Of a DNA stretch of 32,591 bases, positions 27,339 to 32,591 are shown piece after piece. The notes below the pieces were generated by a model, which was not told the origin of the DNA, searched no databases, and was given only the letters and a program-made list of their open reading frames with translations. The stretch comes from Archaeoglobi archaeon (GTDB taxonomy: Archaea; Halobacteriota; Archaeoglobi; Archaeoglobales; Archaeoglobaceae). A program made the translations under genes and the position numbers. Positions within the stretch are counted from its first letter, which is position 1; the number at the start of each line of letters is the position of its first letter. The DNA lies in assembly GCA_029259415.1 (NCBI GenBank), contig JAPDIW010000050.1:1-32591 (forward strand). The letters run 5' to 3'.

Positions 27339-27630
27339 TTATAACTGACCATGTGAATCACGTAAGCAAATTCCGTATTATCTCAACGGAGCAAAGATTA
27401 ACCAGATCGTAGAAAGTTACACCAAGTTTATGGCTCAAATACTCGATGCAGTTTGATAATACAGCCATAAGCAGAATAAAACCGTTGTTGCTCTTCTCAC
27501 TTCTTAAATTTCCTTCAAGCTTTAAAATGGATTTATCCCTTCTGTGCTTCTCCTCAATCCAGAATCTCTTGAGATACTCTTTTATTATGTTCTCTGCTTT
27601 CTTCTTCCAGTTTGTTGAAACTAAGTAGTA
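27339..27630 (-). pseudogene. C-terminal remnant of IS 'B' transposase
   Basis: This block matches 32089-32380 nearly base for base. On the minus strand it encodes the last ~93 residues of an IS4/IS701-like transposase, Y-Y-L-V-S-T-N-W, then the catalytic-acid helix R-F-W-I-E-E-K-H-R-R-D-K and an aliphatic C-terminal helix, ending at 27358. The rest is missing, replaced at 27631 by the end of IS 'A'. An open frame starting with GTG at 27645 is a chimera and not a gene. The outer end abuts the gatA stop codon. Confidence 0.85.
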
Positions 27631-27646
27631 TAGGGTCTTCCCCACA

Positions 27647-28687
27647 TCACCACTCTGACAACCTCTGAATGAGCTTCTTTTCCCTGAAACCGAGCTTAAT
27701 TGTCATCCCCGTAAGCAGGACAGAAAGAGAACATCTCTTTCTCACCGGCTCGAGAGCATAGCAGTGCAATCGCTTCAAACTGAAAGCTTCTTTTCCCAAT
27801 TTGATTACGTCTTCTATTATGCTCCTCAATTTTTTCAGATTCATCTTCAATCCTTCAAACAACTTTTTAACGAGCTTTCTGTACCTTCTCTTCTCCTTCT
27901 CAACGTTCTTCGAGTTAAAGATAAACAGAGGATAGCTTATCATCCCCTCAAGCTTCTCTAATCTGAAATTCTTCCTCGGGATAATCAGAGGCACTATTCC
28001 GTACCTTATCCCTATCAGGTAGTTCTTGTAGGCGTAAAAGCCCCTATCCATAAGTATTGAATCTCCAAACCTGATTAACCTCTTCCTCTTGAGCATTTCC
28101 AAGATTAGGGGGTAAATCCTGCTCTCATGGACATTTGCTGGATAAACATGGAAGAACAAAGGCGTTAAAGTGCTGTAGTCAATCAGAATCATCATCTTCA
28201 TACCCAGAAAGAATCCTTTAGTTGAATATCCCCATTTATATGGCTTATCCTTCAAATCCCTCTTTCTGAAAGGATTTAGATCGAGAGATATATCAGTCCA
28301 GTCTAATATTAAAGTGGTTGGATTATTTCGCCTCTTCTTTGAGTTAGAGTTAAGAATTGAGAAGACAAAGTTTATAAACTGGTCTGCCTCGAATTCTGCC
28401 ATGAATGAGTATACTGATCTCAATTTAACCTCCTCCTCAATCTTTAAGAAATTTCTCAGGTCTAAACGCTTGTTTACCTCGCTAACAGCATAAGAGATCT
28501 CTAACTCGAAGAACATTGCCAGAATGACGACTTTAAGAATTTTTATGGCTTTGTTTACTGGCGTTATTCCATTTCTTGCCAGAGCTTTCTTGGTTTCCCT
28601 AGTTTCAAGCATATCAACGATTTTCGATAGAAGCTCCCATTTCTCATCTCCTTTTATGGGGACAATGGGTAACCTCACTCCAATCAC
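27647..28687 (-). CDS. DDE transposase of IS 'A' (IS4/IS5-like)
   Basis: A full-length protein of 346 residues from a GTG start; an in-frame TAG lies four codons upstream and no ATG is available. The first catalytic aspartate is probably in L-I-L-D-W-T-D-I-S, the second in I-L-M-D-R-G-F-Y-A-Y-K-N; the third acid lies in the basic C-terminal part, perhaps I-I-E-D-V-I. The C-terminal K-L-G-F-R-E-K-K-L-I-Q-R-L is typical of the family. The frame is unbroken, so the element may be active. Base use is more A/T-rich than in the flanking genes. Confidence 0.88.
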   Translation of the reverse strand: MIGVRLPIVPIKGDEKWELLSKIVDMLETRETKKALARNGITPVNKAIKILKVVILAMFFELEISYAVSEVNKRLDLRNFLKIEEEVKLRSVYSFMAEFEADQFINFVFSILNSNSKKRRNNPTTLILDWTDISLDLNPFRKRDLKDKPYKWGYSTKGFFLGMKMMILIDYSTLTPLFFHVYPANVHESRIYPLILEMLKRKRLIRFGDSILMDRGFYAYKNYLIGIRYGIVPLIIPRKNFRLEKLEGMISYPLFIFNSKNVEKEKRRYRKLVKKLFEGLKMNLKKLRSIIEDVIKLGKEAFSLKRLHCYALEPVRKRCSLSVLLTGMTIKLGFREKKLIQRLSEW

Positions 28688-28817
28688 CCAATAAAGCTAA
28701 AATCACCAAGATTCGTCAATTTTACGGTTTATATCGGTTTTATTTTAGATTTCGAGTTATATGGTTTTGTCCTGTTGGAACGGGAAGTGAATCAATTGTC
28801 TGTTTTTAGTATAGAGT

Positions 28818-29046: not shown

Positions 29047-31344
29047 TTATAAAAACCTCGAAAGCCCGCTTCTCCAAGCTTTGTCTGCATCATCAAGCTC
29101 TACGCTGAATGTCCCGAAGTTCAGCTTCTCTCCACCGCTGTACCCTATGATTTCCGCCTTAAGCCCTTTCTCTCTGAAAAACTGCACGTAGCTCTCCGCA
29201 TAACTTTCGGGAACTTCAACCACCCATCTTGTATTTGACTCTGAAAACAGTTCAACGAAGCTTAACTTCCGAACAGCCTCAAATCCAATGCCCCTTCCGA
29301 AGCTCATCTCCGCAATGCAGACCGCAATGCCACCCATGCTGACATCGTGGCAGGCTTTGACCTCAAACTTTCTGGAGGATTCGAGCATGGCGTCGCTGTA
29401 AGCTTTTAGCCTTTCTGGAGACGTTCTTGGGACTATATGGCATCTCTGCTGCATTACTGCAGAATACAGGCTCCCACCAAACTCCTTTTCAGTCTCACCG
29501 ACGAGCACCACCGTCCCCTTGCCTTTGAACTCGCTCGTTATTACCTTTCTGACATCCTCCACTATGCCCACTCCAAGCAGGGAAGGAGTTGGAGCCACGG
29601 AGCCATAGGGAGTTTCGTTGTAGAAGCTGACATTCCCGCTAACACATGGAATTGCTGTTCCTCTGGCCATCCACCCAATCGCCTTCACAGCCTCAACAAA
29701 CTCCCCCATTCTCTCAGGCTTCTCTGGGTTGCCGAAGTTCAGGCAGTCGTTGAACGAGTGCGGAATGGAATTTACTGCCACAAGATTTCTTACCATCTCG
29801 TCGAAGGAGCTGGCGGAGCCCCAGTAGGGATCTACCTTGCACATCCACGGATTGACGTCAGCCGTAATTGCCAGCCCCCTGAAAGACCTTGTCGGCTTTA
29901 TTACTGCCGCATCACCATGCGTTTCAAAGTTCACTCTGCCCTGTAAGGGTTTTAGAATGGTCGAGGCTCTCACTTCGTGGTCATACTGCCGGACAATCCA
30001 CTCCTTAAACGCAACATTCGGGTGGGATAGCATTTTCAGAAAGACCTTTACGTAGTCTTCAGGAGGCTTGACTTCCTCGTGAAGCTCCTTTTCCGGCTTT
30101 TTCGCAATGTAAGGGCGGCAGTATTCGGGGCCACCAGTAACGAACTCTGTGTCCATCTCGTAAATTTTGTATCCTTTGTAGTAGATTCTGGTAATCCTTT
30201 CCGGAATGACCTTTCCAACCACTGTCGCAGGAACATCCCACTTCTGGAAAATGTAGAGCACCTCATCAATATGCTCAGGCCTTACAGTGAGCATCATCCT
30301 TTCCTGGCTCTCTGAAATCCATATCTCCCAGGGTGCCATTCCCTCTTCTTTCAGCGGAACCTTGTCCAGATAAACCTCTGCTCCGTAGCCAGCAGCCAGA
30401 GCCATCTCTCCAATAACACAGCTCAACCCCCCACCGCCTAAATCCTTCATTCCCGTCAGCAATCCTTTCTCAACAACCTCAAGGCAGGCGTGGATTAGTG
30501 GTTCCTTCATTATCGGATTTCCAAGCTGAACAGCTCCCCTTGCCTCCTCTTCACTCTTCTCGTCAAGCTCGGCGGAGGCGAAAGTTACGCCATGAATACC
30601 ATCTCTTCCCGTCTTACCACCGGCAAGAACAAAGAGGTCTCCAGCCCCACCGGCACGGCTGTGAATAATTTTATCTTTTCTGACTATCCCGACGCATCCC
30701 ACATTTACGAGGCAGTTTGTGAGATAGGAATCGTCGAAGAAAACCATTCCTGCAACAGTTGGGATTCCAACTCTGTTGCCGTAGTCCCTTATGCCAGCAA
30801 CGACACCTTTAAGCAGGTAAAGGGGATGCTTCGTCCCCTTCGGAAGCTTCTCGTAAGGTGTGTCAAGATTTCCGAAAAACAGGGGGTCAATGAGCGCTAC
30901 AGGCTGCGCACCCATGCAGAGCACATCTCTAAGAATCCCTCCGATTCCCGTCGCAGCTCCACCATAGGGCTCTATTGCTGAGGGGTGGTTGTGGCTCTCA
31001 AAGGCTGTAACGTAGGCGTACTCATCATCGAACTCCACAACTCCCGCATCTTCCTCGATGGCAGAGATGACGTGGGGTGCTTTTGACGCTTCGAGAAGGT
31101 ACTGTCTCAGATAGTATTTGGAGCTCTTGTAGCAGCAGTGCTCACTCCAAGCTTGGGCAATGCTTTGAAGCTCAATATCGTATGGATTTCTGCCTTTCTG
31201 TCGGAAGTAATCCTTGATTCTCTTCATTTCATCCACATTCAAAGCCAGTCCGAGCTCCTCACTGATTTTGGCAAGCTGCTCATCGTCAGCTTCGAGGATG
31301 AGGATTTCGTAAAGCTCAAAAGGGACATCGACCTTCCTGTACAT
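29047..31344 (-). CDS. purL: Phosphoribosylformylglycinamidine synthase subunit PurL
   Basis: The 765-residue ATP-dependent FGAM synthase domain of purine synthesis. Two AIRS-type repeats are present; typical marks are [12 protein letters not shown] near the N-terminus, [12 protein letters not shown] and D-L-G-G-G-G-L-S, and in the second half the [10 protein letters not shown] motif. The substrate histidine loop S-E-H-C is intact. It starts 4 bp after purS. The glutaminase PurQ is not adjacent. Confidence 0.97.
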
Positions 31345-31348
31345 GCTC

Positions 31349-31591
31349 TCACTCTCTCCAGACTATGTTGTATTTCTGGATGACAGGATTGGCGAGTAGC
31401 TTTTCGCACATCTCCTCGATTTCTCTTTCTGCATCCTCTTTGCTCCTCGATTCGATGTCTATGCGAAAAACCTTCACGGTTGAGACCTTCTTAACCCTCT
31501 TAAAACCGAGCAGCCTGAGAGCCTTGAGCGTTGCCTCACCTTCAGGATCAGCAACACCTTCCTTCAGCTCGATGTAAACGTCGGCAATCAT
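31349..31591 (-). CDS. purS: Phosphoribosylformylglycinamidine synthase subunit PurS
   Basis: An 80-residue subunit that bridges PurL and PurQ for ammonia channelling. The signature is [15 protein letters not shown], followed by L-G-F-K-R-V and I-E, and the C-terminal L-L-A-N-P-V-I. The frame opens at 31624; the ATG at 31591 is the family start and lies 26 bp from a TATA-like box. Confidence 0.95.
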
Positions 31592-31611: not shown

Positions 31612-31622
31612 CTTTAAAAATC
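31612..31622 (-). promoter_or_regulatory. TATA-like box for purSL
   Basis: GATTTTTAAAG on the minus strand, centred about 26 bp before the purS ATG at 31591. Confidence 0.5.
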
Positions 31623-31774
31623 AAGCGATAGGTATTTCGCTTCCATTAATATTAGTATTTAGGTTTATCAAAAAAATCAAAATTTTATTTGAAACGAAAA
31701 AGAAAGGCAAAAAAACATATATTTTAAAGTATTATATCGAGAAATTCAGTAATTTAGTTCAAAAAATCCAAAAA

Positions 31775-32074
31775 TCAGGCCAACTCAACCCAGCTCGCTC
31801 CTGCTTCCTCTGAAAACTTAACTTTACCCTCATTAACAAGCTCGGTTATTGCATTTGAAACCACACTTCTGTCCTCTGCCAAAGCCCTCGCAATCGTCTG
31901 GATATCAGCCCTTCTGTTCTCCTTCAAGTAGTTGACAATCCTCAGCTTCAGAATTTCTTCGGGACTCATTTGAATGCAGACGTACGTATCCCCTGAAGGA
32001 GTACTCTCATACTTTACTATCCCTTCCGCCTGAAGCTGCTTTATAACCTCCGTTACCCCTTTACATTTTTCCAA
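31775..32074 (-). pseudogene. Tandem winged-helix regulator truncated by IS 'B'
   Basis: The readable part has 99 codons from a TTG. The first ~35 residues (G-V-T-E-V-I-K-Q-L-Q-A-E-G-I-V-K-Y-E-S) are the recognition helix and wing of one winged helix. Residues 38-99 are a complete second one (I-L-K-L-R-I-V-N-Y-L-K... I-Q-T-I-A-R-A-L...V-V-S-N-A-I-T-E-L). Upstream, A-E-E-L-G-K of the first domain is still readable in a different frame, needing removal of one A from a five-A run at 32066-32070. IS 'B' then begins at about 32089. The N-terminus of the original regulator is therefore lost. Confidence 0.7.
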
Positions 32075-32088
32075 GTTCCTCTGCTAAT

Positions 32089-32591
32089 TTATAACTGACC
32101 ATGTGAATCACGTAAGCAAATGCCGTATTATATCAACGGAGCAAAGATTAACCAGATCGTAGAAAGTTACACCAAGCTTGTAGCTTAAATACTCGATGCA
32201 GTTTGATAATACAGCCATAAGCAGAATAAAACCGTTGTTGCTCTTCTCACTTCTTAAATTTCCTTCAAGCTTTAAAATGGATTTATCCCTTCTTGCTTCT
32301 CCTCAATCCAGAATCTCTTGAGATACTCTTTTATTATGTTCTCTGCTTTCTTCTTCCAGTTTGTTGAAACTAAGTAGTATGGTTCTTTTTTTATCTTCCA
32401 CGATACATTTAACTATCTTAACCCTACCAACCTCAGGAATGTTAACGACTTTGGAAGCTAAATAAAAACTCCTTTCCTTCAACAGTCCTCTTGCAGAGCT
32501 TCTCTTTCTCGAATAACTCTTCTATTCTGAATTTCTTTCCAAACACTTCAACAATCCAGTTCTTCTTTACTCTCCCAATATATACAACCTT
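32089..32591 (-). mobile_element. IS 'B' copy, partial, with frameshifted transposase
   Basis: The first 292 bp repeat 27339-27630; the copy then continues past the point where that one is cut. On the minus strand it encodes K-V-V-Y-I-G-R-V-K-K-N-W-I-V-E, then V-V-N-I-P-E-V-G-R-V-K-I-V-K, then Y-Y-L-V-S-T-N-W and the C-terminus, with the stop at 32108-32110. At least three single-base shifts break it: an extra T in a five-T run on the minus strand near 32465, an extra A in a seven-A run at 32386-32392, and a missing base near 32293. The N-terminal part lies beyond the window. Confidence 0.8.

Follow-up and report, generated by a model that had tools for sequence, protein, structure and literature searches.

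A tandem winged-helix gene beside purS in an Archaeoglobi archaeon is truncated at an insertion-sequence end and broken in frame

The window analyzed here is a stretch of 32,591 bp that represents the whole of contig C17 in a 104-contig assembly of an Archaeoglobi archaeon, and its right end lies inside an insertion sequence (IS) referred to as IS-X. Next to purS, the window harbors the remnant of a gene for a small protein with two winged helices. This gene is truncated at the IS-X end and broken in frame, which confirms the initial observation of the first-pass annotation. Very probably, it is a regulator pseudogene that was broken by the IS, rearranged and decayed, and that owes its place upstream of purSL to rearrangement. 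The proposed regulation of purine genes, in contrast, is not supported.

Extent and damage of the remnant

The intact gene used as reference stems from the genome that holds Archaeoglobus sp. GB_MAG2_100 contig NZ_JACDNT010000001.1 (G002 in the following). Its protein comprises 128 residues when counted from the second ATG and 132 from the first. The features of the damaged locus are:

31775..32094, minus strand: remnant of the regulator gene, 5' end gone and frame broken, from comparison with the intact G002 gene
31775..32074, minus strand: 99-codon open frame from a TTG, covering the last part of domain 1 and domain 2 in full
32055..32072, minus strand: frame-shift zone, in which the alignment with G002 shows one base missing at each of two sites (net -2)
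32061..32102, minus strand: short frame from an ATG inside the IS end, in the original frame of the gene (MVSYKLAEELGKM), with a stop made by the shift
32095..32591, minus strand: right part of a decayed IS-X copy that runs off the contig; the transposase is broken into several frames

The remnant corresponds to residues 23-128 of the 128-residue protein and is 94% identical to the G002 orthologue over 96 aligned residues, with BLAST homology between the two genes extending over 31770-32099. Upstream of the open frame, the gene can be followed in its original frame as far as 32094 (Y-K-L-A-E-E-L-G-K); the IS terminus CTGACCATGTG adjoins at 32095. As is characteristic of an IS-disrupted pseudogene, an intact homologue exists and the remnant lacks one end at a terminus that is shared with other copies of the element. 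The earlier description that half of the first winged helix is lost is fair: residues 1-22 are gone, residues 23-31 are still in the original frame, and the break in frame falls at about residues 32-35, near 32060. This break had been ascribed to a one-base shift in a run of five A. The shift is real and the run is part of the shift zone, but relative to G002 the alignment calls for one base to be lost at each of two sites some 10 positions apart (net -2), and the exact placing of these sites within runs of A and G is ambiguous. Substitutions accompany these losses over about 20 bases, while the rest of the remnant is open again, including the second winged helix throughout. Owing to the shift, the frame that starts from the ATG within the IS end ends after 13 codons. 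The TTG at 32074 straddles two codons of the original frame, and the 99-codon open frame beginning there matches the winged-helix family PF13412 (HTH_24) with 24.2 bits (Pfam cut-off 21.9).

Intact orthologues and protein architecture

A similarity search of 60 genomes (that of the window and relatives) identified matches of 94% in G002 and 68% in G005, plus weak ones in three others. With a profile, matches at E <= 1e-6 were obtained in five of 392 genomes of the phylum, i.e. in G002, G005, G201 and G286 as well as in the genome of the window, where the remnant itself is the fifth match; the other 387 genomes gave no match at this threshold. Two of the five (G201 and G286) belong to a neighboring genus. 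The proteins of G002 and G005 are colinear (73%), and both halves are present in all four intact proteins. An orthologue beginning at the TTG, or one missing the first domain, had been named as evidence against truncation; among the 392 genomes no such short form was seen, and the four other matches are all full length. The TTG at 32074 can hence be dismissed as the native start, because the whole first domain is present in each of the four intact orthologues.

The first-pass annotation had also expected an orthologue in A. fulgidus. In the single-contig genome G004, which we take to be A. fulgidus DSM 4304, no close orthologue was found: the four matches at E up to 1 all concern other proteins, the best of which shares 38% over 47 residues; overall, the best match in G004 reaches only 38-42% over about 50 residues. 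Judged by these searches, the tandem winged-helix family appears restricted to a few Archaeoglobaceae, and we know of no function for it. By their titles, none of the publications found on insertion sequences, pseudogenes and transposases of Archaeoglobus concerns the regulator gene, and a literature search for GB_MAG2_100 retrieved none.

The tandem winged-helix description of the intact protein is sound at the level of the predicted structure. An AlphaFold2 model of the G002 protein, based on the four-sequence alignment, displays the order H-H-H-E-E twice, in residues 2-63 and 67-127 (mean pLDDT 87.3, pTM 0.65), and PF25212 matches this protein in two stretches. Both model and Pfam thus agree with the claimed tandem architecture, from which the transcription-regulating role is a further step: the 128-residue protein is most likely a small DNA-binding regulator. 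Its second half superposes on the Z-alpha domain of PKZ (5j6x; Z 13.5, rmsd 1.0 over 64 residues) and on the A. fulgidus HTH regulator 1sfx (Z 12.2, rmsd 2.8 over 65). The first six rows of a Foldseek search are long eukaryotic proteins with rmsd >10, which were taken as generic winged-helix matches.

Insertion elements and the displaced 5' end

The terminus CTGACCATGTG found at 32095 recurs at 27345 on the other side of purSL, and it is present in seven of nine IS loci scanned, the copy at 27345 being one of the seven. A fuller copy of IS-X in G005 has its transposase split over two open frames, the second of which matches DDE_Tnp_2 (24.0 bits, cut-off 20.2) and has weak IS4/IS701 similarity below the NCBIfam cut-offs. 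The IS-like unit at 27339-28760 sits between a presumed gatA and purL and is a composite of two different ISs, since many matches elsewhere start or stop at query positions 283-295; the second IS also occurs on its own elsewhere, and only 27345 to about 27629 represents the element of 32095.

27345..28760, minus strand: composite of an IS-X end (27345 to about 27629) and a second IS (about 27629 to 28760)
27647..28687: DDE_Tnp_1 transposase of the second IS (about 1.1 kb) in the composite

The purSL genes are consequently flanked by two IS-X ends of like orientation. Another IS-X end, on contig C79 of the same assembly (L076 272-850), adjoins an HsdS-like open frame of a presumed type I restriction locus, and here the outward ATG of the IS again reads into the host frame (MVSYK...).

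The contig stops 497 bp into a repeated element of a fragmented assembly (104 contigs), and the frame shift sits in runs of A and G, so that a misassembly at a repeat might be suspected behind the IS junction, or a base-calling error behind the shift. We regard such an artefact as very unlikely: the IS-X copy at 32095 matches the closest copy in the assembly at 96.4% and has frame breaks of its own, which means that it does not duplicate that contig end; two separate base losses would be required relative to G002; and the missing 5' end turns up at another place, which is what a broken gene should show.

This 5' end was located on contig C12. A piece of 66-68 bp from G002, spanning the sequence upstream of the gene and its first 14 coding bases, is found at C12:224-291 with 94% identity, where it abuts the end of a third element, IS-Z, at C12:223; this is also where sequences similar to C12:1-223 break off on C79, in G006 and in G007. 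To the right of the piece, C12 carries an amino-acid-permease gene in broken frames, followed by an adjoining FmdA/AmdA gene. In this arrangement (L045 224-621), the upstream region and first codons of the regulator gene are fused to the permease pseudogene. The next 51 coding bases of G002 (L012:1419-1469) have no match anywhere in the window's own genome. With the 5' piece beside IS-Z instead of across IS-X, a simple history of one single insertion is not supported, and the position of the 5' region between an IS-Z end and a permease pseudogene indicates that the regulator locus was also rearranged.

Hence, the following sequence of events can be proposed. An Archaeoglobus species would have carried the lineage-restricted protein of 128 residues and two winged helices, which most likely served as a small regulator that binds DNA. 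IS-X may then have inserted at about codon 22, and small deletions could subsequently have broken the remaining frame. Through further rearrangement, the start of the gene (its upstream region plus 14 coding bases) would have ended up on a different contig, adjoining the end of IS-Z and fused to the permease pseudogene, while the remnant most likely came to lie upstream of purSL through rearrangement, with purSL retaining a core promoter-like element of its own. The order of these events, the loss of function and the roles assigned to regulator and promoter are our inference.

The upstream region of purSL

Between the remnant and purL, the following features were assigned:

31632..31769: A+T-rich spacer (21% G+C) from the remnant to the purS promoter-like element
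31614..31628, minus strand: purS promoter-like element (TCGCT...TTTTTAA), conserved in the alignment
31349..31591, minus strand: purS from the conserved ATG (PF02700)
29047..31344, minus strand: presumed purL (named by its position), 765 codons

The element TCGCTTGATTTTTAA lies 23-37 bases before the purS ATG. Its TCGCT and TTTTTAA motifs are invariant in all seven aligned Archaeoglobus genomes, the window included, and may be read as BRE and TATA box. The homology of the window to six relatives around purSL stops at 31628-31631, and nothing farther upstream aligns. Because the alignments stop just above the invariant element, the core promoter of purS has probably been kept in the window. The spacer at 31632-31769 has no significant match among 11 loci (best E 0.78) and none elsewhere in its own genome. 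The comparison covered about 270 bp upstream of purS in G005, G006 and G007, and a purS match was not found in G003.

Further upstream, the neighbor of purS differs between genomes. G002 and G004 have another, divergent gene at this position (as compared by eye), G001 has mtaD divergent from purS, and the window has the remnant. The G002 neighbor has no DNA match in G000 (the genome of the window) or G001 in a search without positive control, and its first open frame gave no match to a Pfam family. In a purSL tree, the window and G002 group together (support 0.973) with G001 outside. The purSL neighborhood has thus been reshuffled around IS elements, while the conserved promoter-like element of purS stayed in place.

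The question of a purine regulator

The first-pass annotation had considered that the regulator might control purine or neighboring genes and that this control was lost. In the DNA read, however, none of the four intact orthologues adjoins purSL. The G002 gene has a divergent mtaD on one side and etf genes on the other. That of G005 is flanked by Mrp/NBP35-like ATPases and a molybdopterin oxidoreductase, and those of G201 and G286 by a radical-SAM gene and one resembling SfsA. These names are presumptive, except for Radical_SAM (Pfam, in G286) and the deaminase similarity of mtaD, whose protein has strong NCBIfam deaminase matches that nevertheless lie below the curated cut-offs. In G002 and G005, purS is on a contig other than that of the regulator; for G286, the whole 4.2-kb contig was read, and for G201 the stretch from C18:36000 to the contig end at 44138 (8.1 kb).

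It could still be argued that the protein was a purine regulator in the lineage of the window, and that an ancestral mtaD-regulator-purSL cluster was broken in different ways. The pairs mtaD-purS in G001, mtaD-regulator in G002 and regulator-purS in the window look like pieces of one cluster, and mtaD-type enzymes act on adenosine-like compounds. Yet G002, which is the nearest species according to the purSL tree, shares its purS neighbor with the outgroup G004, and the other three intact orthologues are next to neither mtaD nor purSL in the DNA read, which renders this reading very unlikely. Its fuller form, in which the regulator of the subclade once tuned purine synthesis against adenosine salvage and each living species dismantled the cluster differently, the window species by IS insertion, is a highly improbable speculation. 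Archaeal purine synthesis is the topic of PMC3261824.

Concerning mtaD, a G002-type gene was not found in the window's own assembly, where the best match reaches 42%. Neither was a G002-type threonyl-tRNA synthetase (ThrRS), for which the only match is one of 30% over 197 residues in an assembly rated 99.16% complete. ThrRS is essential, so that an assembly gap is likelier than a deletion; the missing ThrRS-mtaD block is probably such a gap, beside IS copies. Loss of mtaD as real biology was rejected on the same grounds, ThrRS being missing too.

Taken together, purine control by the regulator is not supported, and the remnant seems to reflect ordinary decay of the genome, not the loss of a purine switch. 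Adjacency in one genome is a poor ground for reading a gene as a purine regulator.

Selection and residual function

Over 96 codons, the open part of the remnant differs from G002 by eight synonymous and eight nonsynonymous changes. The nonsynonymous number is below that expected under neutrality (binomial P 0.015), and four of these eight fall into the shifted codons 1-3. For purL, the comparison with G002 gives 169 synonymous and 38 nonsynonymous differences. These counts, although small for the remnant, suggest that the regulator gene evolved under constraint during a large part of the divergence, and the break is therefore probably recent. The proportion of synonymous sites that differ from G002 is smaller in the remnant (31775-32065; 8/65 sites) and in purS (31352-31591; 5/53) than in purL (29050-31344; 169/536).

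Given the nonsynonymous deficit, the remnant may have had a recent or residual function, which runs counter to its interpretation as a pseudogene. Conceivably, it could even be a working gene for a shorter protein that consists of the second winged helix alone and uses a new start and promoter. The second domain is indeed intact and open, and an in-frame ATG exists at 31969 within the remnant. This is improbable to a high degree in view of the four full-length matches among the 392 genomes, the absence of the gene's own upstream region and start from contig C17, and the A+T-rich spacer downstream of the remnant. Moreover, the window branch from codon 4 on shows three nonsynonymous and three synonymous changes, too few to demonstrate constraint after the break. 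We prefer the interpretation as a pseudogene.

Comparison with known systems

The best structural matches of the second domain (L012 1405-1788, residues 65-128) are the Z-alpha domains of PKZ and ADAR1, to which it also has a weak sequence match (E 0.0039). Z-alpha domains use an Asn and a Tyr of helix 3 for Z-DNA. In contrast, the aligned columns hold Ser and Thr/Ser in all four family sequences, none of which has this signature of the recognition helix.

The intact proteins resemble MarR/HTH_24-type regulators and PF25212 (HVO_A0114) through Pfam matches in both halves and winged-helix structural matches. Unlike these, the family combines two winged helices within 128 residues with no other domain seen, and it was matched in only five of the 392 genomes searched, remnant included.

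The locus itself is of the same kind as IS-inactivated archaeal pseudogenes, with which it shares the cut at an IS terminus, the lost 5' end, the decay of the frame and an assembly broken at the repeat. Here, the two pieces of the gene are found on separate contigs beside different elements, and therefore later rearrangement was also involved.
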